Shown here: in pieces, positions 46,292-58,108 of the stretch | Layout of the letters: each line of letters opens with the position of its first letter | How positions within the stretch are numbered: position 1 is the first letter of the stretch | Assembly: GCF_947496075.1 (NCBI RefSeq) | Contig: NZ_CANMBJ010000002.1 | Span: 1-64,000 of the forward strand | Source of the DNA: an uncultured Tateyamaria sp. | Lineage (GTDB): Bacteria; Pseudomonadota; Alphaproteobacteria; Rhodobacterales; Rhodobacteraceae | Direction: 5' to 3' | Length of the DNA: 64,000 bases | Program-made: the position numbers and the translations under genes | Notes under the pieces: model-generated | What the model saw: the letters and a program-made list of their open reading frames with translations, nothing else | Databases searched by the model: none | Told to the model about the DNA's origin: nothing

Positions 46292-47485
46292 TCAGCCCTT
46301 GACCGCTTTCACGATTTTCTGGGCACCGTCTTTCAGGTCGTCGGCCGCGATCACATCAAGACCAGAGTTGTTGATGATGTCCTTGCCCTGCTGCACGTTG
46401 GTGCCTTCGAGGCGCACAACCAGCGGGACTTGCAGGCCCACCTCTTTCACGGCGGCGACAACACCCTCGGCAATCACATCACAACGCATGATGCCCCCAA
46501 AGATGTTGACAAGGATGCCCTTCACGTTCGGGTCTGAGGTGATGATTTTGAAGGCTTCGGTCACCTTCTCCTTGGTCGCGCCACCGCCCACGTCGAGGAA
46601 GTTGGCAGGCTCGGCGCCGTAGAGCTTGATGATATCCATCGTCGCCATGGCCAGGCCCGCGCCGTTCACCATGCAACCGATCTCGCCATCCAGCGCGATG
46701 TAATTCAGGTCGTATTTGGAAGCGGCGAGTTCCTTGGGGTCTTCCTCGGTCTCATCGCGCAGTTCATTGATGTCTGTGTGGCGATAGATGGCGTTGCCAT
46801 CAAAGGACACTTTGGCGTCGAGCACTTTCAAATCACCGCTGTCGGTCACAATCAGTGGGTTGATCTCGAGCATCTCCATATCCTTCTCTTCGAAGGCTTT
46901 GTAGAGCAGGCCCATCAGGCCAACGCATTGCTTGACCTGCTTGCCTTCCAGACCGAGCGCAAAGGCAATGCGACGGCCATGATAGGCTTGATACCCTGTC
47001 GCCGGATCGACCGAGAAGCTCAGAATTTTTTCCGGGGTCGCAGCGGCAACCTCTTCGATGTCCATGCCGCCCTCGGTCGAGCAGACAAAGCTGATGCGGC
47101 TGGTTTGGCGATCCACCAGCAGGGCGAGGTAGAGTTCAGTTTCGATGCCCGAACCGTCTTCGATGTAGATGCGGTTGACCTGCTTGCCAGCCGGTCCTGT
47201 TTGATGGGTAACCAGCGTCCGTCCCAGCATCTTCTTGGCTTCTTCGGCAGCTTCTTCGACCGATTTGGTCAGACGTACGCCGCCCTTGTCGCCTGCATCC
47301 GCTTCCTTGAACTTGCCCTTGCCGCGGCCACCGGCGTGGATCTGTGCCTTGACCACCCACATCGGCCCATCAAGGGCGCCCGCTGCCGTCTTCGCCTCTT
47401 CTGCTCTCAGAACGACACGACCGTCCGAAACGGGCGCTCCGTAGCTGCGCAAAAGGGCCTTGGCCTGGTATTCATGGATGTTCAT
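46292..47485 (-). CDS. sucC: Succinyl-CoA synthetase beta subunit
   Basis: 397 residues from ATG 47485 ([18 protein letters not shown]). ATP-grasp features include [31 protein letters not shown] with metal ligands, and [17 protein letters not shown] and [15 protein letters not shown] in the C-terminal domain. It is the first gene of the leftward TCA operon. Its promoter region carries the double GTGATCAC operator shared with sdhC. Confidence 0.97.
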
Positions 47486-47596
47486 GGCGGTTTGATCCCG
47501 TATAGATACGTCAACGTTGGGCCTATACGACCAACACTGAACAGCGCGTAAACGGAAAATATGTCGCAGTGGCGGTTTTGTGCGCGAAAATCGGAC

Positions 47597-47633
47597 ATTT
47601 GTGATCACTGCATTAAATCGTGTGATCACAAAT
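47597..47633 (-). promoter_or_regulatory. Double GTGATCAC operator upstream of sucC
   Basis: ATTTGTGATCAC (47597–47608) and its exact inverse GTGATCACAAAT (47622–47633) are separated by 13 bases. Each contains the palindrome GTGATCAC. The nearer copy starts about 115 bases upstream of the sucC ATG; the other side faces the divergent glycosyltransferase gene. The same arrangement with the same spacing precedes sdhC. Confidence 0.75.
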
Positions 47634-47659
47634 CTGGGTGAGAAAGGGAATCAACCCCC

Positions 47660-48697
47660 ATGGCGACGCAATTTCCTATAAAACCAGAGGAAAATGGCGT
47701 GCGCTGGGGCGTGGTAATGACGGCAAGCGAACCGTTGGCCTTGGTCGAAACCAATGTGCGGTGGCACCTCGCAACAGGTGCCGAGACCGTTTTCGTGTTC
47801 CTCGACGACCCGAACGATCCGTCAAAAGATACGCTTGGGGCGATCCCAAATTGCTCGGTTCATCTGTGTGACGATCACTATTGGAATGAAGCCAAGCCCA
47901 AAAATGGTCGGCCGCCGTCGCAGATGCGGCGCCAAACAATCAATGCCAACTGGGCGCAGAGCCATTGCGATCTGGATTGGCTGTTTCATATCGATGCCGA
48001 CGAATTCATCTGGCAAGATGGCAATCTCCGGTCCGAACTTGCAGACCATCGCGATCCCCGCACCGAATTGAACTTGCCGGTGTTCGAAAGGGTCTTTCCG
48101 AAGGGGCAGCTGCAGTCCCTGTTCGACGGCGCATTTCGCGCGTCATCGGATCTGACGTCGGATCAGGCCTACGCCGTATTTGGGTCTTTTGCGTCGCTCA
48201 TGAAACGTGGACAGTATTCGCATGGCGCAGGCAAAAGCGGCGTATGTGTGGGGGCCGGTTTGCGCCTTGGGGTGCACAACGCGACACGCACCGGATCGGG
48301 CGGGCAGCAGAGACGGGCGGCCAAATGTGTTTCGGAGACGGCGCGCCTATTACACTTTGATGGCGTGACGCCCCTTCATTGGATGATGAAAGCGTTGCGC
48401 TACCGCCAGACGTCCTCAGAGGTGCAGGCGAAGGTGTTGCAGCCACACCGCGCGGCTCAAATCAGATGGATGATGGAACGTTCGGACACGATGGACAGTA
48501 TGCGGCAGGCTCATCGGAGCATGTTTTCACTGACGGACGAGCGACGTTTGAAATTGAACGCCTTTGGTTTGCTGCGCGAGGTTCCATTCAAGCCCAAAGG
48601 CGTTTTGGGCGCAGATTGCCCCAACCTCGACCCCGACGCGTTCGATACTGAATTGTTCCGCCGCACTCCCTGGCTACGCGAACTGTTTGAAGAATAG
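47660..48697 (+). CDS. Family 2-like glycosyltransferase
   Basis: 345 residues. The nucleotide-sugar fold is seen in GVRWGVVMTASEPLALVETN, HLATGAETVFVFLDDPNDP and the metal-binding DxD in LDWLFHIDADEFIWQ. The C-terminal part (HWMMKALRYRQTSSEVQAKV, RMLFGLLREVPFKPKG-like end) is helical. There is no signal or membrane segment. It is probably cytoplasmic and builds a surface polysaccharide or glycan; the acceptor is unknown. It lies next to a sulfotransferase gene, suggesting a sulfated glycan. Confidence 0.8.
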   Translation: MATQFPIKPEENGVRWGVVMTASEPLALVETNVRWHLATGAETVFVFLDDPNDPSKDTLGAIPNCSVHLCDDHYWNEAKPKNGRPPSQMRRQTINANWAQSHCDLDWLFHIDADEFIWQDGNLRSELADHRDPRTELNLPVFERVFPKGQLQSLFDGAFRASSDLTSDQAYAVFGSFASLMKRGQYSHGAGKSGVCVGAGLRLGVHNATRTGSGGQQRRAAKCVSETARLLHFDGVTPLHWMMKALRYRQTSSEVQAKVLQPHRAAQIRWMMERSDTMDSMRQAHRSMFSLTDERRLKLNAFGLLREVPFKPKGVLGADCPNLDPDAFDTELFRRTPWLRELFEE

Positions 48698-48775
48698 GGA
48701 TTTGTCATGGTTGTGTCGGCAGCCCGATAACAATAGCGCTTGCCATAGAGTGTCGAGAGATTTTGAGTTCGAAAT

Positions 48776-49372
48776 ATGCCGCTTGTCCGCCTTGATAAAA
48801 CACTGATCTTTTTTGTGCACATCCCCAAGACCGGAGGAGCAAGTGTCGACCGCTATCTTTCAAAGGTTGGAAACATCGCCCTTTGGACGCCCGGAACCAT
48901 GCAGTGGTCGAAATGCTCGCCACAGCATATCCATGCAGAATTGCACACACGCATGATCCCTCGTGGCTTCTATCAACACGGTTTCACCATCTTGCGGGAT
49001 CCGGTGGCGCGTATGATCAGCGAGTATAGATACAGGGCGATGCGTCGCCAGTCAGACAGACCCTTGCCTGAGTTTGACATATGGGCGATCCGTATGTTGC
49101 AGCGATATGAGAGCAATCCCTATGTTCTGGACAATCATATTCGCCCGCAATCGGAATTCGTCTCGGACGGCCTCAAGCTGTTTCGCTATGAAGATGGGCT
49201 GGATCCGGTGTTCGACTGGATCGACGAGATAGGTGGTCATGCGGCCCTGCCGCGCAAATGGCATAACAGATCCTCTGGTCCGCAGGTCGAACCCTCCAAG
49301 GATGTTGCGGAGTTGATCCGTGAATTTTATGCGCAGGATATCGCGTTGCTGGATCAGATCTCGTCAGCATAG
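48776..49372 (+). CDS. Sulfotransferase-family protein (Sulfotransfer_2)
   Basis: 198 residues from ATG 48776. The PAPS 5'-phosphosulfate loop is FFVHIPKTGGASVDRYL, and the 3'-phosphate site is GFTILRDPVARMISEYRYRA. Short length fits cytosolic bacterial members of the sulfotransferase family 2. It is 78 bases after the glycosyltransferase gene on the same strand, so the two may sulfate and build the same glycan. Substrate unknown. Confidence 0.83.
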   Translation: MPLVRLDKTLIFFVHIPKTGGASVDRYLSKVGNIALWTPGTMQWSKCSPQHIHAELHTRMIPRGFYQHGFTILRDPVARMISEYRYRAMRRQSDRPLPEFDIWAIRMLQRYESNPYVLDNHIRPQSEFVSDGLKLFRYEDGLDPVFDWIDEIGGHAALPRKWHNRSSGPQVEPSKDVAELIREFYAQDIALLDQISSA

Positions 49373-49420
49373 CGGGTTTTGACAGGTTGCCAACATACCC
49401 GGCATCGCCAAACTGATAGC

Positions 49421-50236
49421 TCAGGAGGCCGCCGTGTCCGTCGTGGGAAGGGTCTTATGGGCACGCCACTTGGTATAAAGGATGTATACCAGAGCGCCCT
49501 CCGGAATGGCGGTCACAAGAAACGGCAAACTTGCATATATATCCACCACGATGATGGCGCCCAGTGCCCCAAGAATGCGATTTCGGTCTTTCTTGAACTT
49601 TCGGTGGGCTGGCGTTTCCGTATCTGATGACGTGTCGTCCGCCGCCGGGGCAAAAGCCGTTGCGCGGTCAATCTTGGGACCAAGGTTATCAAGGTGTCGT
49701 GGGGCGGTGACGCCGTCTGCGACGACCGCATACACACCAACTTCTTCCGCGAGATGTTTGGGGGTCGCGGGTCCAAGCGGGCGCAACTCAACCTTTCCCA
49801 GTTTGCCATGTGCATGATCGTACACCTGTTGCGAGATCAGGATGCCGCCCACATCCGCCATCTCTTGCAAGCGCGCGGCCAGGTTCACGCCATCACCCAG
49901 CAGGTCAGCCCCTTCGATGATCACATCATCCAGATGAATGCCCAACCGAAATGGTAGCAGATCGGCCCGTGCATTCAGCGTGCGTTGTACGTCTACCGCG
50001 CATTTCACAGCGCCGACAACGGATGGAAAGTCAACGATCAGGCCATCGCCCGAGGTGTTGGCGATGCGACCGCCGCATTCTGCAATCGCGCTGTCCATGA
50101 CATCGCGCGTCGCGCGCAACGCCTGCACTGTACCTTCCTCATCCCGGCTCATCCGACCGGAATAGTTGGCCGCGTCCGCCGCCAGAATGGTGGTCAGCTT
50201 TCGTTCAATGGGGCGCGACTGAGACATGTGAACCAT
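49421..50236 (-). CDS. Class III adenylate/guanylate cyclase-domain membrane protein
   Basis: 271 residues (268 if the second ATG at 50227 is used). The cyclase domain is N-terminal: TTILAADAANYSGRMSRDEE, NTSGDGLIVDFPSVVGAVKC, FRLGIHLDDVIIEGADLLGD and GVNLAARLQEMAD. The metal-binding Asp pair (AAD, SGDG) and the Asn–Arg transition-state residues are kept, so it is probably active. A linker leads to one or two C-terminal membrane helices (ILGALGAIIVVDIYASLPFL; IPEGALVYILYTKW). The order catalytic–membrane is less usual than membrane–catalytic. It lies downstream of the mdh terminator. Confidence 0.87.
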   Translation of the reverse strand: MVHMSQSRPIERKLTTILAADAANYSGRMSRDEEGTVQALRATRDVMDSAIAECGGRIANTSGDGLIVDFPSVVGAVKCAVDVQRTLNARADLLPFRLGIHLDDVIIEGADLLGDGVNLAARLQEMADVGGILISQQVYDHAHGKLGKVELRPLGPATPKHLAEEVGVYAVVADGVTAPRHLDNLGPKIDRATAFAPAADDTSSDTETPAHRKFKKDRNRILGALGAIIVVDIYASLPFLVTAIPEGALVYILYTKWRAHKTLPTTDTAAS

Positions 50237-50244
50237 ATAAACAT

Positions 50245-50275
50245 AAAAAGGGCCGGATGCGACGGCATCCGGCCC
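50245..50275 (-). terminator. Rho-independent terminator of mdh
   Basis: GGGCCGGATGC (50250–50260) and GCATCCGGCCC (50265–50275) form an 11-bp stem with a GACG loop. On the minus strand it is followed by TTTTT (50245–50249). Confidence 0.9.
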
Positions 50276-50298
50276 CTAAATTCATCGCCGCGGCAAAT

Positions 50299-51303
<1,005 letters not shown>

Positions 51304-51430
51304 CTAGCGCGAGATGGGGCGTCACGCAAGGGTGCCGCACCGCAGCGTATCGCAACGGGCGTGCTGGTGCATATCACATTCGCGCGCTAAGGGTGCAGGA
51401 CAGCACTGTTTTTCAAAGGGTCGTGCGGGC

Positions 51431-52183
51431 GTGAACCTGGATCTGTGGTTTTTTGCAATCGCTGCACCGGCGGTGGTCTTTGCGGGGGTTTCCAAGGGCG
51501 GTTTCGGGTCTGGCGCATCCTTTGCGTCCGCTTCGATTCTGGCGCTGGTGATTGAACCGGGCATGGCGTTGGGGGTCGTGTTGCCCCTGCTGATGCTGAT
51601 CGATGCAGCGACGCTCAAACCGTATTGGGGCAAGTGGGACTGGCGCGTGTCGGCGTTGATGATTGCGGGCGGGTTGCCCGGCGTCGCGCTGGGCGCGCTG
51701 TTGTATTCGCGTACCGAACCGGATGTGTTCCGAGTGCTGATTGGTGTGATCTCGGTCGGCTTTGTCATCTGGCAGGTGGGACGCAGCCGGGGCTGGATCA
51801 GAACGGCATCGCACGCCTTGCCCACGTGGGTCGGTGCGCTTACGGGCACAGTTGCCGGGTTCACCAGCTTCGTCAGCCATGCCGGTGGACCACCCGCGGC
51901 CGTTTATTTGTTGTCGTTGCGCCCGTCCAAGACTGTATATCAGGCCAATACCGTCCTGATCTTCACCGCGATTAACATCTTCAAATTCGTCCCGTATGCC
52001 TTTCTGGGTATGTTCACGGCCCAAACAGCGATCGCAAACATCGCCCTCGCGCCCTTTGCGCTGCTGGGGGCTTGGCTTGGGGTGCGGGCGCATCACCTCG
52101 TACCGGAACGCGCGTTCTTTTTGCTGACCTATGTGCTTTTGGTGATGACGGGTGCAAAGCTGATCTGGGACGGTCTGACATGA
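51431..52183 (+). CDS. TSUP-family (TauE/SafE) membrane transporter
   Basis: 250 residues from GTG 51431; the open frame before it is shadow of the mdh promoter region. It has about eight helices, with the TSUP half-repeat FAGVSKGGFGSGASFASASI near the N-terminus and GFTSFVSHAGGPPAAVYLLS in the second half. The family exports or imports sulfonates, sulfite and related organic anions. It overlaps the following acetyltransferase (ATGA). Substrate unknown. Confidence 0.88.
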   Translation: MNLDLWFFAIAAPAVVFAGVSKGGFGSGASFASASILALVIEPGMALGVVLPLLMLIDAATLKPYWGKWDWRVSALMIAGGLPGVALGALLYSRTEPDVFRVLIGVISVGFVIWQVGRSRGWIRTASHALPTWVGALTGTVAGFTSFVSHAGGPPAAVYLLSLRPSKTVYQANTVLIFTAINIFKFVPYAFLGMFTAQTAIANIALAPFALLGAWLGVRAHHLVPERAFFLLTYVLLVMTGAKLIWDGLT

Positions 52184-52614
52184 GTACCCGGACCCTCACA
52201 GCGGCTGATACAGCACAGGCCCTGACGTTGTATCGGCATCTTGTCGGAGAACAGCCGCTCGCATCCGACTCGGCATTTGCCGAGCTGATTGACCACCCCG
52301 GTACATGGGTGTGGGGTGCCTTTCTGTCGGATCATCTGGTGGCGATGGCAACGCTTCATGTTTTGCCCAACATGACACAGGGTGGTCGCCCCTACGCATT
52401 GGTCGAAAATGTGGTCACGCATCAAACGCATCGTGGGACTGGGCAGGGGCGGCGGGTCATGCAGGCGGCGATCGATGCAGCGTGGGCGGCGGATTGCTAC
52501 AAGATAATGCTCCTGACCGGGCGAACAGCCGAAGCGCGAGGCTTTTATGAAAAGCTGGGGTTCGGCACGGACGAGAAATGGGGTATGACCATCCGCCGTG
52601 TTCCTGAGCGGTGA
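52180..52614 (+). CDS. GNAT-family N-acetyltransferase
   Basis: 144 residues from ATG 52180, overlapping the TSUP stop. The acetyl-CoA loop is VENVVTHQTHRGTGQGRRVM (Q/RxxGxG/A pattern), followed by AAIDAAWAADCYKIMLLTGR and the C-terminal ARGFYEKLGFG. It is a small cytoplasmic acetyltransferase of unknown acceptor. A cluster of hairpins follows. Confidence 0.88.
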   Translation: MSTRTLTAADTAQALTLYRHLVGEQPLASDSAFAELIDHPGTWVWGAFLSDHLVAMATLHVLPNMTQGGRPYALVENVVTHQTHRGTGQGRRVMQAAIDAAWAADCYKIMLLTGRTAEARGFYEKLGFGTDEKWGMTIRRVPER

Positions 52615-52621
52615 TCTGTTG

Positions 52622-52749
52622 GGTGGATCAAGATCCACCTTACAGTGGGTAATGCGGACATTTGGTCTGCCCCGGGCAAAGCAAAGGCGCACCGAGGTGC
52701 GCCTTACAAATGACTGTCAGGATACTGTAAGGCGGACGTGTCGTCCGCC
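52622..52749. repeat. Cluster of three perfect hairpins between convergent genes
   Basis: GGTGGATC (52622–52629)/GATCCACC (52632–52639), AAGGCGCACC (52684–52693)/GGTGCGCCTT (52696–52705) and GGCGGAC (52731–52737)/GTCCGCC (52743–52749) are three stems, each flanked by a GTAAGG or CCTTAC edge. They look like modular copies of one small palindromic element as well as terminators. Confidence 0.55.
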
Positions 52750-52757
52750 GCACCGGT

Positions 52758-53075
52758 TCAGGCGTCGCTGCCTTTGGCAGGCAAGGCTTCGGCGAGCGTT
52801 TCATAGGCCTGGCCGCTGGCAACAAGGCAGGTCATCCCGTTGGGCGTTGTCACTGTGATCGTCCACGATCCGCTTTCGTCCGAGGCAAAAACCTCGATCA
52901 CCGAATTATTGGCCCCAAGGCCCATGGATTGGCGTGTCTCGCCATAACCTTCGGCGAGACGGCTCACCACGATATCGCGGGGTCCGCAATTGCGGGCCTG
53001 CTGCGCCTGTGCCGCATTCACCATTGCCGCAAGCGCTAGAACGCCCGCTATCATCACATTCATCATCCGTGTCAT
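52758..53075 (-). CDS. Small secreted protein of unknown function
   Basis: 105 residues from ATG 53075, chosen because AAAGG lies eight bases upstream. Signal peptide MNVMIAGVLALAAMVNAAQA, then QQARNCGPRDIVVSRLAEGY, GETRQSMGLGANNSVIEVFA and SDESGSWTITVTTPNGMTCL. The CGPR..GY.E pattern with a later Cys is common in alphaproteobacterial small periplasmic proteins, whose role is unknown. Confidence 0.72.
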   Translation of the reverse strand: MTRMMNVMIAGVLALAAMVNAAQAQQARNCGPRDIVVSRLAEGYGETRQSMGLGANNSVIEVFASDESGSWTITVTTPNGMTCLVASGQAYETLAEALPAKGSDA

Positions 53076-53428
53076 CACGTTCAGCCTTTCACAAAGGAAG
53101 GCGTCACCTCTGGTCATCTGGCCCAGCCGGAACCCCGGCGATGACCGGGCAGCCCCGGTTCACACCCGACCCTTTGCGCATTCCGTGAAGTGTTCGGCGG
53201 CCCTGCCGAAACGGCCCTCCCCGCGCTGTCGGATTGGGACAAATGTGCGGATCTAGCCTTGAATAGTGGTTAATGCAGCGTGCGCAGGTCGTTAAAATTT
53301 GATGAAAGACTGCTGAACCCAACGAAAGTAGGGCCCCCATTTCTGCAGCGCAGAAAAATAGCGCTTGAACTATCTGGCAAAAAGTGGCCCTTTCCGCGCA
53401 ACTTTATGACTCGCAAGGATCGCACGCA
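53076..53428. other. Intergenic region upstream of mcl2 with an inverted repeat
   Basis: No gene. TTCGGC (53193–53198)/GCCGAA (53205–53210) is a small hairpin. TTTCTGCAGCGCAGAAA (53340–53356) is a 7-bp inverted repeat with a three-base centre, about 75 bases before the mcl2 start, and is a candidate operator for the acetyl-CoA-assimilation genes. Confidence 0.4.
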
Positions 53429-54283
53429 ATGGCCCTCGACCGTCCCCTCCGCTCTGTTCTCTACATCCCAGGTTCGAAACCACGGGCGTTGGACAAGGCG
53501 CGCGGACTGCCGGTTGATGCGATCATCTTCGATCTCGAAGATGCCGTATCGCTCGAAGAAAAGGAAAGCGCGCGGGCCACGCTGGCCGATGCGCTGGCCC
53601 AAGGCGGGTACGGTGCGCGGCTGAAAATCGTGCGGATCAACGGCTTTGACACAGCATGGGGTCGAGATGATGCGCAGGCAGCCAAGGATATGGGGGCCGA
53701 CGCGATCCTGTTGCCCAAGGTGTCCTCGCCCGCCGATCTGGATGCATTGGCCGAGATCACCGGGGACACGCCTCTTTGGGCGATGATGGAAACGCCTCTG
53801 GGCATGATCAACGCGCCCGCCATCGCTGCGCATCCGAAACTGCAAGGCATGGTCATGGGCACCAATGATCTGGCCAAGGAATTGCAGACCCGCTTCCGGT
53901 CCGACCGACTGCCGCTGCAATCCGGGTTGAGCCTGTGCTTGCTGGCGGCCAAGGCGCATGGCTGTGCCATCGTCGACGGCGTTTACAACACGTTCAAGGA
54001 CGATGAAGGTTTGCAATTCGAATGCGAACAGGGCCGTGATATGGGTTTTGATGGCAAGACGCTGATCCACCCGGCGCAAGTCGACATCACGAATGCCGCT
54101 TTTTCCCCGTCCGAGGCGGAGATCGATCTGGCCCGCCGCCAGATCGCAGCCTTTGAAGAGGTGGAAGCCGCGGGTCAGGGCGTGGCGGTTGTCGATGGAC
54201 GTATCGTCGAGAATCTGCACATCGTGACTGCGCGCGAAACATTGGCCAAGGCCGAGGCTATCGCGGAGATGGCAAAGGGATAA
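53429..54283 (+). CDS. mcl2: CitE-family (3S)-malyl-CoA thioesterase-like protein
   Basis: 284 residues from ATG 53429 (AAGGATCG upstream). HpcH/CitE TIM-barrel motifs present: RSVLYIPGSKPRALDKARG, IIFDLEDAV (metal-binding Glu-Asp), KIVRINGFD with the CoA-binding Arg, LWAMMETPLGMINA, GTNDLAKEL and GFDGKTLIHPAQV. In Rhodobacter the CitE homologue in this position, near mch, is malyl-CoA thioesterase (Mcl2), which completes malate release in the ethylmalonyl-CoA pathway. The shorter length compared with the lyase Mcl1 (about 320) agrees. Lyase activity cannot be excluded from sequence alone. Confidence 0.82.
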   Translation: MALDRPLRSVLYIPGSKPRALDKARGLPVDAIIFDLEDAVSLEEKESARATLADALAQGGYGARLKIVRINGFDTAWGRDDAQAAKDMGADAILLPKVSSPADLDALAEITGDTPLWAMMETPLGMINAPAIAAHPKLQGMVMGTNDLAKELQTRFRSDRLPLQSGLSLCLLAAKAHGCAIVDGVYNTFKDDEGLQFECEQGRDMGFDGKTLIHPAQVDITNAAFSPSEAEIDLARRQIAAFEEVEAAGQGVAVVDGRIVENLHIVTARETLAKAEAIAEMAKG

Positions 54284-54286
54284 GCG

Positions 54287-54841
54287 ATGTATTGGATTGT
54301 GTTGATTGCAGGTGTCGCCTTGTGGTGGGCGGCGCATCTGTTCAAGCGGGTGGCCCCGGCACGTCGGGCATCTATTGGGGATCCGGGCAAAGGCATCATT
54401 GCCTTGGTGCTTGTCGGGTCCATTGTGCTGATGGTTATCGGCTACCGGGGTGTGGATTTTGTCCATGTCTGGCTGCCCCCAGAATTCATGATCCACATCA
54501 ACAACCTGCTCATGCTGATCGCAATCTACCTGCTCAGCCCAGCACCCAAACGGGGCAAGCTGGTGTCAGGCATGCGTCATCCCATGTTGACCGGGTTCAG
54601 CCTGTGGGCCATCGCGCACTTGCTGGTGAATGGTGATGTCGCCTCGATACTGCTCTTTGGCGGCTTGCTGGTTTGGGCCATTGCAACCGCGCGTATCATC
54701 AATGCAGCCGAACCCGGCTGGCAACGTGGACCAGAGGGTACGCTTGCAAAGGACGCCATGTTCCTTGTCGGGTCCGTCGTCTTGCTGGGCGTAATCGGTT
54801 GGGTCCACAACTGGCTGGGTGTCTGGCCGTTCCCGGGGTAA
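54287..54841 (+). CDS. NnrU-family membrane protein
   Basis: 184 residues with about five membrane helices: MYWIVLIAGVALWWAAHLF, GIIALVLVGSIVLMVIGYRG, INNLLMLIAIYLLSPAPKRG, RHPMLTGFSLWAIAHLLVNG (the diagnostic NnrU HPM..G...W..AHLL) and a C-terminal helix. NnrU relatives occur with denitrification genes and carotenoid isomerases; the function is unproven. It lies between mcl2 and mch, four bases after mcl2. Confidence 0.85.
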   Translation: MYWIVLIAGVALWWAAHLFKRVAPARRASIGDPGKGIIALVLVGSIVLMVIGYRGVDFVHVWLPPEFMIHINNLLMLIAIYLLSPAPKRGKLVSGMRHPMLTGFSLWAIAHLLVNGDVASILLFGGLLVWAIATARIINAAEPGWQRGPEGTLAKDAMFLVGSVVLLGVIGWVHNWLGVWPFPG

Positions 54842-54845
54842 ATCC

Positions 54846-55049
54846 ATGAAATTGTACCGCTTTCTGTCCGAAGAGGACACGTCCGCCTTTTGCCACAAGG
54901 TCACTGCCGCCCTGAACGCGGGATGGGAACTACACGGCTCACCGACCCAGACATGGGATCACGCCGCGGGGATCATGCGTTGCGGACAAGCGGTCGTGAA
55001 AGAGGTGCCGGGGGACTACACCCCGGACATCAAACTAGGAGAGCAGTGA
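54846..55049 (+). CDS. DUF1737-type small protein
   Basis: 67 residues from ATG 54846, five bases after nnrU. The pattern MKLYRFLSEEDTSAFCHKVT, AALNAGWELHGSPTQTWDH and VVKEVPGDYTPDIKLGEQ matches the short DUF1737 domain. Its stop shares a base with the mch start (TGATG), so it is translationally coupled to mesaconyl-CoA hydratase. Function unknown. Confidence 0.8.
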   Translation: MKLYRFLSEEDTSAFCHKVTAALNAGWELHGSPTQTWDHAAGIMRCGQAVVKEVPGDYTPDIKLGEQ

Positions 55050-56080
55050 TGGCCAAGACCAATGCGGGCCGGTTTTTCGAAGATTACAGTGTTGGCGATG
55101 TGCTGACGCACGCGGTTCCGAGGACGGTCGGGGCAGGCGAGCGGGCGCTGTACCATGCGCTCTACCCGGCGCGGCACGCTCTGTACTCGTCAGACACGTT
55201 TGCACAGGCGTGCGGGCTGGCCGCGTCGCCGCTGGATGACATGATCGCTTTTCACACTGTCTTTGGTAAAACCGTCCCGGATGTTTCGCTGAATGCCGTT
55301 GCAAATCTGGGCTACGCCGAAGGACGGTGGCTACAGCCGGTGTGGCCCGGTGACACGCTTACCTCGCAATCCGAGGTGATTGGGGTCAAGCAGAACTCGA
55401 ACGGTAGGTCCGGCGTGGTCTACGTGCGGACGACCGGGCGGAACCAGCGGGACGAGGCGGTTCTGGAATATGTGCGCTGGGTGATGGTGCGGAAGGGCGA
55501 TCTGGATGCGCCAGCGCCTGAGACGGTTGTGCCCGACTTGAACAAGGTTGTCCCCGCGGGGACACTTGCGGTGCCCGACGGTTTGACCTTCGAAAACTAC
55601 AATTGCGATCTGGCCGGAGAGCCGCACCGCTGGGGCGACTATGCGGTTGGCGAACAAATCGACCACGTGGACGGCGTGACAATCGAAGAAGCCGAACACA
55701 TGATGGCGACCCGCCTCTGGCAGAACACTGCTAAAGTGCATTTCGACACATCCGCGCGCCCTGACGGGACGCGCTTGATCTATGGCGGGCACGTGATTTC
55801 GATGGCGCGCGCGCTGTCGTTCAACGGGTTGGCCAACACGCAGATGGTCGTGGGCCTGAACGCGGGCGCGCACGCCAACCCTTGTCTGGCGGGTGATACG
55901 GTCCGGGCATGGTCCGAAGTGCTGGACAAGGCCGAAACCTCTGCCCCCGGTGTTGGGGCGATCCGGTTGCGGTTGGTCGCGACCAAGGGCGGCGCGCCGT
56001 TCCAGCTGCGGGGGGAGGACGGCAAGTATCTGCCCGAGGTCTTGCTTGATCTCGATTACTGGGCCCTGATGCCCATGTAA
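55049..56080 (+). CDS. mch: Mesaconyl-CoA hydratase (beta-methylmalyl-CoA dehydratase)
   Basis: 343 residues from ATG 55049 (AGGAG at about 55037). Two MaoC-like hot-dog halves: KTNAGRFFEDYSVGDVLTHA with YHALYPARHALYSSDTFAQA, and HRWGDYAVGEQIDHVDGVTI with TRLWQNTAKVHFDTSARPDG then GGHVISMARALSFNGLANT. This matches Mch of the ethylmalonyl-CoA pathway, which interconverts mesaconyl-C1-CoA and beta-methylmalyl-CoA. It sits with mcl2 as in Rhodobacter. The frame open upstream is shadow. Confidence 0.92.
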   Translation: MAKTNAGRFFEDYSVGDVLTHAVPRTVGAGERALYHALYPARHALYSSDTFAQACGLAASPLDDMIAFHTVFGKTVPDVSLNAVANLGYAEGRWLQPVWPGDTLTSQSEVIGVKQNSNGRSGVVYVRTTGRNQRDEAVLEYVRWVMVRKGDLDAPAPETVVPDLNKVVPAGTLAVPDGLTFENYNCDLAGEPHRWGDYAVGEQIDHVDGVTIEEAEHMMATRLWQNTAKVHFDTSARPDGTRLIYGGHVISMARALSFNGLANTQMVVGLNAGAHANPCLAGDTVRAWSEVLDKAETSAPGVGAIRLRLVATKGGAPFQLRGEDGKYLPEVLLDLDYWALMPM

Positions 56081-56152
56081 GGATGCCGGGGTGACGCGCG
56101 TCTGGCGACGACGCCCCACCCGCCATCCCGCAGGACGCGAAGGAGAGACATC

Positions 56153-56863
56153 ATGCTGCGATACGTGTTGCCGTTTCTGTTGATGCCGGGCATGGCGCTT
56201 GCAGATGAAGAGCGCGAGGCCTTCGTCGAGGCCAATCTTCTGGGGGTTTTCTACCACGAACTAGGGCACGCGCTGATCGACATTCTGGCCCTGCCGGTTT
56301 TTGGTCAGGAAGAGGATGCGGCGGATGTCGCCTCGATCCTGTTGATCGACGGCTTCTATGAGGAAGAGGCAGCACAGGCGTTGGCCTACGATGCAGCCTT
56401 TGGTTTCCTGGGAGAAGCCGCCGCAGCCGCCGGCATCGCCTATTGGGACACGCATGGGCCGGATGAGCAACGCTTTTACAACACGGTGTGCCTGTTCTAC
56501 GGTGCCAACCCCGAAGCGCGCGAGGATTTTGCAATTGACCTTGGGTTGCCGCCAGAGCGCGCAGAAACCTGCCCTCATGAATTCGCACTGGCGCTCGACA
56601 GTTGGGGCCCGGCCTTTGACGAAATCGCGGGGCAGGGCAATACGATCCAGTTCGATCACGGTGGGCATGCCCTGCTGACAACGGACGTTATGCGGGCCGA
56701 GGTTGCCGCACTGAACGATGACTTCGATCTGCCCATCACGCTGACAGTCCGGGTCGAGGAATGTGGCGAGGCCAATGCGTTTTATGACCTTGGCACCACC
56801 GAAATCATCATGTGCACAGAGTTCGAAGACCATCTGCGCACGCTTTATGACGCGCTTGAGTGA
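56153..56863 (+). CDS. DUF4344-type secreted metallopeptidase-like protein
   Basis: 236 residues. Signal peptide MLRYVLPFLLMPGMALA, then a zinc-type motif FYHELGHALIDIL (HExxH-like HELGH), EEDAADVASILLIDGF with a further acidic ligand, WDTHGPDEQRFYNTVCLFYG, ERAETCPHEFA and a C-terminal strand region. This is the DUF4344 putative metallopeptidase plan. Probably periplasmic; substrate unknown. Confidence 0.83.
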   Translation: MLRYVLPFLLMPGMALADEEREAFVEANLLGVFYHELGHALIDILALPVFGQEEDAADVASILLIDGFYEEEAAQALAYDAAFGFLGEAAAAAGIAYWDTHGPDEQRFYNTVCLFYGANPEAREDFAIDLGLPPERAETCPHEFALALDSWGPAFDEIAGQGNTIQFDHGGHALLTTDVMRAEVAALNDDFDLPITLTVRVEECGEANAFYDLGTTEIIMCTEFEDHLRTLYDALE

Positions 56864-56913
56864 CCGTACGTTTGTGAAGTGCACTGTGTGACAGGACGCG
56901 CTAGGCTTCTGTC

Positions 56914-57573
56914 ATGTGGCGCTTGGCTTCCATCTGTCTGACATTGGCGTCGCCAGCGCGCGCGTGCGAGTTGGCGCTGCTTTTGGCTGTGGATGTGTCA
57001 GGCTCGGTTGATGCCGATGAATATCGTATCCAGATGGATGGTGTGGCCCATGCGTTGCGGGACGGGATCGTGGCCGATGCCCTGATTGCGCAAAATGCGC
57101 AAGTGAGCCTTGTGCAATGGACGGGTGCTTCCCGTCAGCGTCAGACAGTGCCATGGACAGCCATCCAGACCTATCAGGACGTGTTGACACTTGCCGACCG
57201 GATCGAAGGTGACGCGCGCGTCTGGCGGAACTACTCGACGGCCATTGGTGAAGCGCTGGCTGTGTCACGTGTGTCCTTTGCCCCCGTGGCTCACTGCCAG
57301 CGCAAAGTGATCGACGTGTCCGGCGATGGGGTCTCGAACGAAGGGGTGGAGCCGGCGACGCAGCGCAAAGTGCTTACGCAGGACAACATCACGGTGAACG
57401 CCATCGCGATTGAGACCGACGATACGGATCTGACGGCGTATTTCTTTGAAAACGTGATCACCGGGCCTGGCGCTTTTGTGGTCACAGCCCAGGGATTCGA
57501 GGACTACCCCGAGCAGATCAAACGCAAGCTACAACGTGAGACGACAAAACAGGTGACTTATTCTGCACAGTGA
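56914..57573 (+). CDS. DUF1194-type secreted von Willebrand factor A-like protein
   Basis: 219 residues. A short signal segment (MWRLASICLTLASPARA) precedes CELALLLAVDVSGSVDADEY, the MIDAS DxSxS metal site; SLVQWTGASRQRQTVPW, RNYSTAIGEALAVS (second MIDAS Thr) and KVIDVSGDGVSNEG (Asp) complete the VWA fold. DUF1194 is common in Rhodobacteraceae; the ligand is unknown. It is immediately upstream of the sdh operator region. Confidence 0.87.
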   Translation: MWRLASICLTLASPARACELALLLAVDVSGSVDADEYRIQMDGVAHALRDGIVADALIAQNAQVSLVQWTGASRQRQTVPWTAIQTYQDVLTLADRIEGDARVWRNYSTAIGEALAVSRVSFAPVAHCQRKVIDVSGDGVSNEGVEPATQRKVLTQDNITVNAIAIETDDTDLTAYFFENVITGPGAFVVTAQGFEDYPEQIKRKLQRETTKQVTYSAQ

Positions 57574-57581
57574 CCAATCTT

Positions 57582-57610
57582 GTGATCACACGCATTTCAA
57601 CCGTGATCAC
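57582..57610 (+). promoter_or_regulatory. Double GTGATCAC operator upstream of sdhC
   Basis: GTGATCAC at 57582–57589 and 57603–57610, 13 bases apart, ends 114 bases before the sdhC start. Aligned in the direction of transcription it shares TTGTGATCACACG, ATTT and the second GTGATCAC with the sucC site. A partial GATCACAAA also occurs just before sdhC (about 57708–57716). Confidence 0.75.
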
Positions 57611-57724
57611 GTTTGCGCAGAATCCTGCAAATGCGCCAAAAAACCGCGCCAATTGTGAAGGCGTCGCGCGTGACATGTCTGTAAAAAGAGGTATCAAGAA
57701 GCAACCGATCACAAAGGATGCACA

Positions 57725-58108
57725 ATGGCAGACGTCAACCGGGGCAATCGCCCGCTTTCGCCGCACCTGCAAATCTACCGCCCACAGTGGACATCGATGT
57801 CGTCCATTATGGTGCGCATCACCGGGATAGGCTGCCTGATCGCCTCTGTGCTTGTGGTTGCTTGGCTCTTGGCCGCTGCATCATCCGAGGCTGCATTTGC
57901 CGTGGTTGATGGTCTGCTGCGCAGCGTGCTCGGCAATCTGGTCCTGATCGCAGCAGTGTGGGGCATCTTTTATCACATGCTGGGTCGGCTGCGTCACGTG
58001 TTGTGGGACTTCGGCCATTTTATCCAGGTCCCCGTGTCCGAAGACATGGCCAAGGGCATGTTCATTCTGGCCACGTTGCTGACCGTTTTTGTTGTGATCG
58101 CAGTTTAG
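57725..58108 (+). CDS. sdhC: Succinate dehydrogenase cytochrome b556 subunit
   Basis: 127 residues. RPLSPHLQIYRPQWTSMSSI (the SPHL.IY motif), MVRITGIG, and HMLGRLRHVLWDFGHF with haem-ligand His, plus three membrane helices, identify SdhC. It anchors the SdhAB dimer and reduces ubiquinone. AAAGGA lies just before the ATG. It is the first gene of sdhC–D–A–x–x–B. Confidence 0.94.
   Translation: MADVNRGNRPLSPHLQIYRPQWTSMSSIMVRITGIGCLIASVLVVAWLLAAASSEAAFAVVDGLLRSVLGNLVLIAAVWGIFYHMLGRLRHVLWDFGHFIQVPVSEDMAKGMFILATLLTVFVVIAV

Follow-up and report, generated by a model that had tools for sequence, protein, structure and literature searches.

A conserved paired palindrome before sucC and sdhC in an uncultured Tateyamaria sp. 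is most likely an operator of the GntR-family regulator AkgR

The 64,000-nucleotide stretch of an uncultured Tateyamaria sp. analysed here (contig NZ_CANMBJ010000002.1; the window) carries the palindrome GTGATCAC twice, with 13 bases between the copies (an N13 pair), before sucC and again before sdhC. What protein binds this pair, and to what effect on these two tricarboxylic acid (TCA) cycle genes? Judged from sequence comparison, both sites are most likely operators of AkgR, a known kind of site. The genes and boxes are as follows.

46292..47485, minus strand: sucC, succinyl-CoA synthetase beta subunit (start MNIHEYQ... at 47485)
47601..47608, minus strand: sucC promoter-proximal GTGATCAC box, 115 nt before the sucC ATG
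47622..47629, minus strand: sucC distal GTGATCAC box, centre 21 bp from the proximal box
57582..57589, plus strand: sdhC distal GTGATCAC box
57603..57610, plus strand: sdhC promoter-proximal GTGATCAC box, 114 nt before the sdhC ATG
57725..58108, plus strand: sdhC, first gene of sdhC-sdhD-sdhA-sdhB (translations named by eye)

The four boxes and their 13-base separation, as given in the original prediction, were confirmed by exact match, and the listed distances agree with its estimate of about 115 bases before each start codon. A longer, mechanically called sucC open reading frame (ORF) begins inside the operator; it was not accepted as the real start, and the MNIHEYQ... start was used. Two similarities had been proposed between the two sites. 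Read towards the gene, both do share TTGTGATCACACG; the second, ATTT, occurs in both spacers one base out of register and is not kept across the promoters of relatives, and was discarded as a conserved feature.

In the 4.94 Mb genome (11 contigs) the exact pair is found before sucC and sdhC and nowhere else, and four further places match when one mismatch is allowed. Within the window, N13 pairs with up to three mismatches number six, including the two exact ones, against a mean of 0.35 in shuffled sequence. Single boxes also number six (four of them the operator boxes) against 1.3 expected, a count reached in 1 of 100 shuffles, and the remaining two, at 57454 and 59474, lie within coding sequence. 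One GTGATCAC by itself means little; what is significant is that two occur together, at this spacing and in this position.

The pair is conserved throughout the family Rhodobacteraceae. Of 394 family genomes, 338 (337 of 393 genera) contain an exact N13 pair, most of them two, and when a pair spaced by 12 bases (N12) was sought in the 56 N13-negative genomes only, it was found in 19. In a draw across the class, N12 or N13 pairs were present in 6/6 family genomes vs 2/381 genomes outside the family. One of the two outside pairs (L226; L, G and C numbers are our handles for loci, genomes and contigs) is inside an ORF. The other (L225:992-1020, in G519) is an N13 pair between a TonB-receptor-like gene, named by eye, and a GntR gene whose product is 29% identical to AkgR; distant AkgR relatives may use the operator on other targets. 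As a spacer control, the 17 spacers from N14 to N30 together gave 21 sites in 20 of 179 family genomes, while N13 alone was present in 149 of the 179. A reversed-pattern control was dropped in favour of the spacer and out-of-family controls. CTAG is depleted in many bacteria, and the reversed box contains CTAG, so this control was of little use.

These counts bear on whether the boxes are a by-product of chance or of coding sequence rich in GATC words. Single GTGATCAC words are indeed common and often fall within ORFs, but the spacer control refutes chance and the pairs recur before the same two genes, leaving this explanation a negligible probability. The original prediction had staked its case on conservation before sucC and sdhC orthologues and on rarity at unrelated loci. 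Both expectations were borne out, the latter in the window's own genome, the class-wide draw and the spacer control.

Named loci were collected with Mdh as bait and 10 kb flanks from the best 80 of 587 relatives, and thus represent near relatives; SdhC, SdhA and SdhB served as tblastn queries into them. An N13 pair lies upstream in 70 of the 75 loci with sucC and in 49 of the 67 with sdhC. With the window included, the 76 sucC promoters comprise 71 with N13 and five with N12, and the 68 sdhC promoters comprise 50 with N13, 13 with N12 and five with no pair; among these five, L054, L062 and L071 have no box and L056 and L079 have one. Elsewhere, G170 has an N14 pair before sucC (L219). In the 71 N13 sucC spacers an A after the first box, a T before the second and a weakly A/T-rich middle are kept. 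Outside the octamers, which are exact by search design, T before and A after each box and A/T-rich outer flanks are conserved at sucC, less so at sdhC. The geometry of the pair is near-constant over hundreds of related genera. One named locus, L046 (JAHVJD010000010.1), is titled Nocardioides marinus; its mdh, sucC and sdhC are close to those of Rhodobacteraceae, operators included, and it is probably mislabelled or contaminated.

CRP/FNR half-sites, TGTGA and TCACA, need a 6-base gap. Both half-sites are present in TGTGATCACA, and the promoter distances described below resemble class I activation, which might suggest that a CRP/FNR-type protein activates these operons. In both operators, however, the half-sites are contiguous with a gap of zero, and exact contiguous boxes precede sucC in all 76 promoters. 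We consider a CRP/FNR site very improbable, in keeping with the original prediction, which had set the motif apart from this class.

AkgR belongs to the GntR family and is presumably the same protein as RSP_0981. A passage of one report identifies GTGATCAC with a motif seen in AkgR binding sites and calls AkgR a transcriptional activator of Rhodobacter sphaeroides (PMC6365646); in another, the GntR-family RSP_0981 is predicted to control sucCD, sdh and the 2-oxoglutarate dehydrogenase genes in R. sphaeroides (PMC4344238). The window's genome encodes an AkgR orthologue (C4:211993-212643) among its 21 GntR matches, with a GntR helix-turn-helix domain (PF00392) and an FCD domain (PF07729) that both score over the cut-off. 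It lies on contig C4, apart from the suc and sdh genes on C2, and shares 77% identity with the GntR gene that Cereibacter johrii (L110) carries close to sdhB; that gene was taken as the RSP_0981 orthologue from this location and tag order, not from sequence comparison. Four features of an AkgR operator are found here: GTGATCAC in the target promoters, suc and sdh as targets, an orthologue in the genome and its GntR and FCD domains.

AkgR and the pair also occur together. At E <= 1e-40, a threshold that may admit a few genomes with a paralogue only (e.g., G054 and G273), AkgR relatives are present in 362 of 394 family genomes. An N12 or N13 pair was found in 349/362 AkgR-positive vs 8/32 AkgR-negative genomes (Fisher p 1.8e-22, uncorrected for relatedness; cross-table counted by eye, with 20 negatives listed and 12 inferred from absence in the positive list), and all 19 genomes with N12 and no N13 have AkgR. 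Outside the family, at E <= 1e-30, only proteins 32-41% identical were found, in 15 of 381 genomes.

The akgR gene itself carries a box. Among 31 akgR promoters (the 30 best-scoring family matches and L110), 29 have one box upstream, which starts 16-20 nt after the start of a TTGAC in 28 of the 29 (18 nt in 21); in all 29, its end and the first ATG or GTG downstream are 0-11 nt apart. This position covers the expected -10 region, from which autorepression is suggested: AkgR would bind the single box and repress its own gene in a negative loop. The motif statement, the orthologue, the co-occurrence and the box at akgR together argue for AkgR as the binder. The original prediction had named AkgR and CceR as candidates and chosen neither; AkgR is favoured by each of these lines, and nothing in the analysis linked CceR to GTGATCAC.

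How the pair might act is indicated by its place relative to the core promoters, for which the following elements are proposed.

57670..57675, plus strand: putative sdhC -35 hexamer GTGACA, 59 nt after the proximal box
57692..57697, plus strand: putative sdhC -10 hexamer TATCAA, after a 16-nt spacer
47550..47552, minus strand: TTT in the putative -35 region of sucC, 48 nt past the proximal box
47522..47527, minus strand: putative sucC -10-like hexamer TATAGG, weak

The sdhC core promoter, searched as GTGAC[AT], 15-19 nt and TA, was found in 52 of 63 pair-bearing promoters, the window included, with a spacer of 16 nt (18-19 in four) followed by TANNNN. The distance from the proximal box to the start of the -35 is 57-60 nt in 45 of the 52, 69-70 nt in six and 79 nt in one. 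On a tree of 53 sdhC loci, in which L086 (with two GTGAC) was entered at 59, the whole-turn class changes at least five times. A wider draw, which overlaps the named loci in organisms (G112 with L052 and G100 with L047 share sequence) and is not an independent sample, gave 116 rows from 110 of 179 genomes with GTGAC at 41-71, 94 of them at 57-60 and 22 elsewhere. Over all 116 rows before checking, 12 of the 21 outside 56-61 were in phase vs 6 of 25 positions expected (p 0.0011). Checking of the 22 rows outside 57-60 identified 12 sdhC promoters one turn away (six at 47-49, six at 68-71) and one sdhC promoter at 61; the others were four sucC pairs, four opposite-strand readings (for which the sdhC site of the pair is in phase) and one double match (G100, judged from L047). 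The 94 rows at 57-60 were checked individually for G002, G003 and G005 only. No checked sdhC promoter of the wider draw was found at 50-56 or 62-67. Relative to the core promoter, the sdhC pair stays on one face of the helix, and its shifts are whole turns.

The sucC promoter is less distinct. Counting from the proximal box, 58 of the 76 promoters have a conserved TT 47-48 nt downstream; the window, displaced by a single base, does not belong to these 58. In relatives, a TATAAC-like hexamer occurs most often 70-72 nt past the box, and a search for the sucC -35 as TTG[ACT]C failed to give a confident -35. By arithmetic from the putative promoters, the box centres would be at about -88 and -109 at sucC and -98 and -119 at sdhC. 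Transcription start sites have been reported for R. sphaeroides (PMC7471390). Separately, A/T-rich columns appear to recur about every 10 bp in the sucC promoters, 38-71 nt after the start of the distal box, and may represent an intrinsic bend or RNA polymerase contacts.

A fixed helical face with whole-turn shifts is the pattern of an activator that faces RNA polymerase from one side. GntR proteins are often repressors, and the pair could instead be a repressor site. Between the end of the proximal box and the putative -35 downstream lie about 47-60 nt, too many for a simple steric block to be likely; the sdhC phase is kept over whole-turn shifts; and AkgR is called a transcriptional activator in the passage available to us (PMC6365646). 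Repression from the pair is accordingly improbable, slightly more so than the involvement of another GntR protein considered below.

We propose that each GTGATCAC palindrome binds one AkgR dimer, and that two dimers would sit two helical turns apart on the same DNA face, probably in contact. From about 90-120 bp upstream of the putative transcription start, this pair would activate the sucC and sdhC promoters of Tateyamaria sp. by contacting RNA polymerase from one fixed face in a class-I-like manner. The two-dimer, one-face operator shared by sucC and sdhC in the original prediction fits these tests, with occupancy itself deduced from the spacing. Our confidence is high in this reading as a whole: AkgR operators, two same-face dimers, class-I-like activation and single-box autorepression of akgR.

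Several observations weigh against it. Eight family genomes have a pair with no AkgR detected; five of the eight assemblies are <90% complete, and a renewed search recovered relatives 24-38% identical in seven and none in G096. Thirteen AkgR-positive family genomes lack an N12 or N13 pair, the akgR genes of C. johrii (L110) and L146 lack the box, and 11 of the 63 pair-bearing sdhC promoters lack the core promoter. Three of these 11 are Paracoccus loci with GTGAC at 47-48, which, with L041 (GTGAC at 58), have no TA; L064 has its only match at 30 and six have none. The motif and the word 'activator' come via one citing passage (PMC6365646), not the primary paper (Imam 2015), and AkgR binding and activation in Tateyamaria sp. 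are predictions. Finally, a second protein 33-41% identical to AkgR is encoded in five of the six family genomes searched and could compete for the boxes.

This last point raises an alternative in which another GntR/FCD protein, such as an AkgR paralogue, binds the boxes or shares them with AkgR, whose presence would then only mark the family. It would agree with the many GntR matches of the window's genome, with the GntR gene beside the G519 pair and with a different GntR gene (70% identical to L023 of the window's genome) on the short contig that carries mdh and sucC in L097. The palindrome has also been proposed for another GntR protein, PS417_07240, 32% identical to AkgR, in the same citing passage (PMC6365646). 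Against it, a search of the 80 named loci with the GntR proteins of the window's genome (tblastn, E <= 1e-6) gave three matches, of which two are the AkgR orthologue, in L110 near sdhB and in L070 at the locus edge, and only that in L097 is another GntR. The box in akgR's own promoter in 29 of 31 cases and the presence of AkgR in every N12-without-N13 genome also argue for AkgR. We regard the alternative as unlikely, and AkgR remains the preferred binder.

Further arrays extend this arrangement. Three GTGATCAC boxes at exact 21-bp steps precede sucC in G135, G191 and G285 (L231, L228 and L238), the extra box being distal. As a tentative generalization, which we rate slightly below an even chance, two or three AkgR dimers two turns apart would form a rigid, phase-locked unit that presents a fixed side to RNA polymerase and moves by whole turns at sdhC; the single box at the akgR -10 would provide negative feedback, and how large the array is, together with its turn number, would determine the gain of TCA-cycle expression in the various members of the family. 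A search of the AkgR literature, whose coverage did not extend to the primary paper (Imam 2015), found no description of a fixed pair or phase geometry, and the fixed pair, phase-lock, triple arrays and akgR box may be new.

Pairs and boxes were also seen at other genes. G042 has an extra N13 pair (L220, G042:C16:227100-229500, boxes at 1194 and 1215) before an ORF that by eye resembles a class II fumarase, which suggests operator gain at another TCA gene. In G296 (L227:1501-1529) an N13 pair, which may be a target or chance, lies ~200 nt upstream of an ORF that by eye resembles an acetyl-CoA acetyltransferase. Pairs with N22 or N23, their centres about three turns apart, occur in G136, G164 and G042, and sucC or sdhC were not found beside them. 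A regulon search of the window's genome with TGTGATCAC gave 54 matches; of 20 stretches inspected, 16 have the box within one or more crude ORFs, and the other four are akgR itself, L178, L183 and L185. The TGTGATCACA single box of L178 (L178:1504, G000:C6:329902-329911) is 118 nt before an alpha-glucosidase-like ORF (by eye). One of the one-mismatch pairs, C4:683310-683338 (L005), occupies the short interval that separates a mutY-like gene from a divergent one. Within the window, 47660-49372 between mdh and sucC holds, on the plus strand, a glycosyltransferase-like and a sulfotransferase-like gene (by eye) and, on the minus strand, a cyclase-like ORF; in C. johrii (L110), unlike the window, mdh and sucC adjoin each other.

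With these results a remarkably well conserved operator gains a likely binder, and the AkgR regulon, so far that of a few model species, would reach most of the sampled genera of an abundant family. Hundreds of homologous promoters that differ in pair spacing (N13, N12, rarely N14), in triple boxes and in whole-turn sdhC distances form a natural series on which cooperative and helix-phased activation of the TCA cycle could be tested.

Among known systems, CceR is a LacI-family protein and so unlike AkgR in family. In Paracoccus it is described as globally regulating the switch between glycolysis and gluconeogenesis (PMC11323563), and it resembles the present system in controlling central carbon genes in the same bacterial family. 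In E. coli, CRP activates class I promoters from sites at distances that differ by whole helical turns. The sdhC operators share these whole-turn differences; they differ in the protein family, the contiguous palindrome, the two proposed dimers as a rule and a position mostly farther upstream. The PS417_07240 site of the Pseudomonas deoxyribonate cluster, as far as the cited passage describes it, has the same palindrome GTGATCAC for a related GntR protein, but as a lone palindrome, which occupies -47 to -40 relative to the start codon, and with a different metabolic target (PMC6365646). The closest system is the AkgR regulon of R. sphaeroides, which in the portions of the reports available (PMC6365646; PMC4344238) shares the palindrome GTGATCAC, the sucCD and sdh targets and an orthologous GntR/FCD protein. 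Its near relative C. johrii (L110) has both N13 pairs, and Tateyamaria sp. departs from the R. sphaeroides-type arrangement in that akgR is on another contig, not beside sdh.

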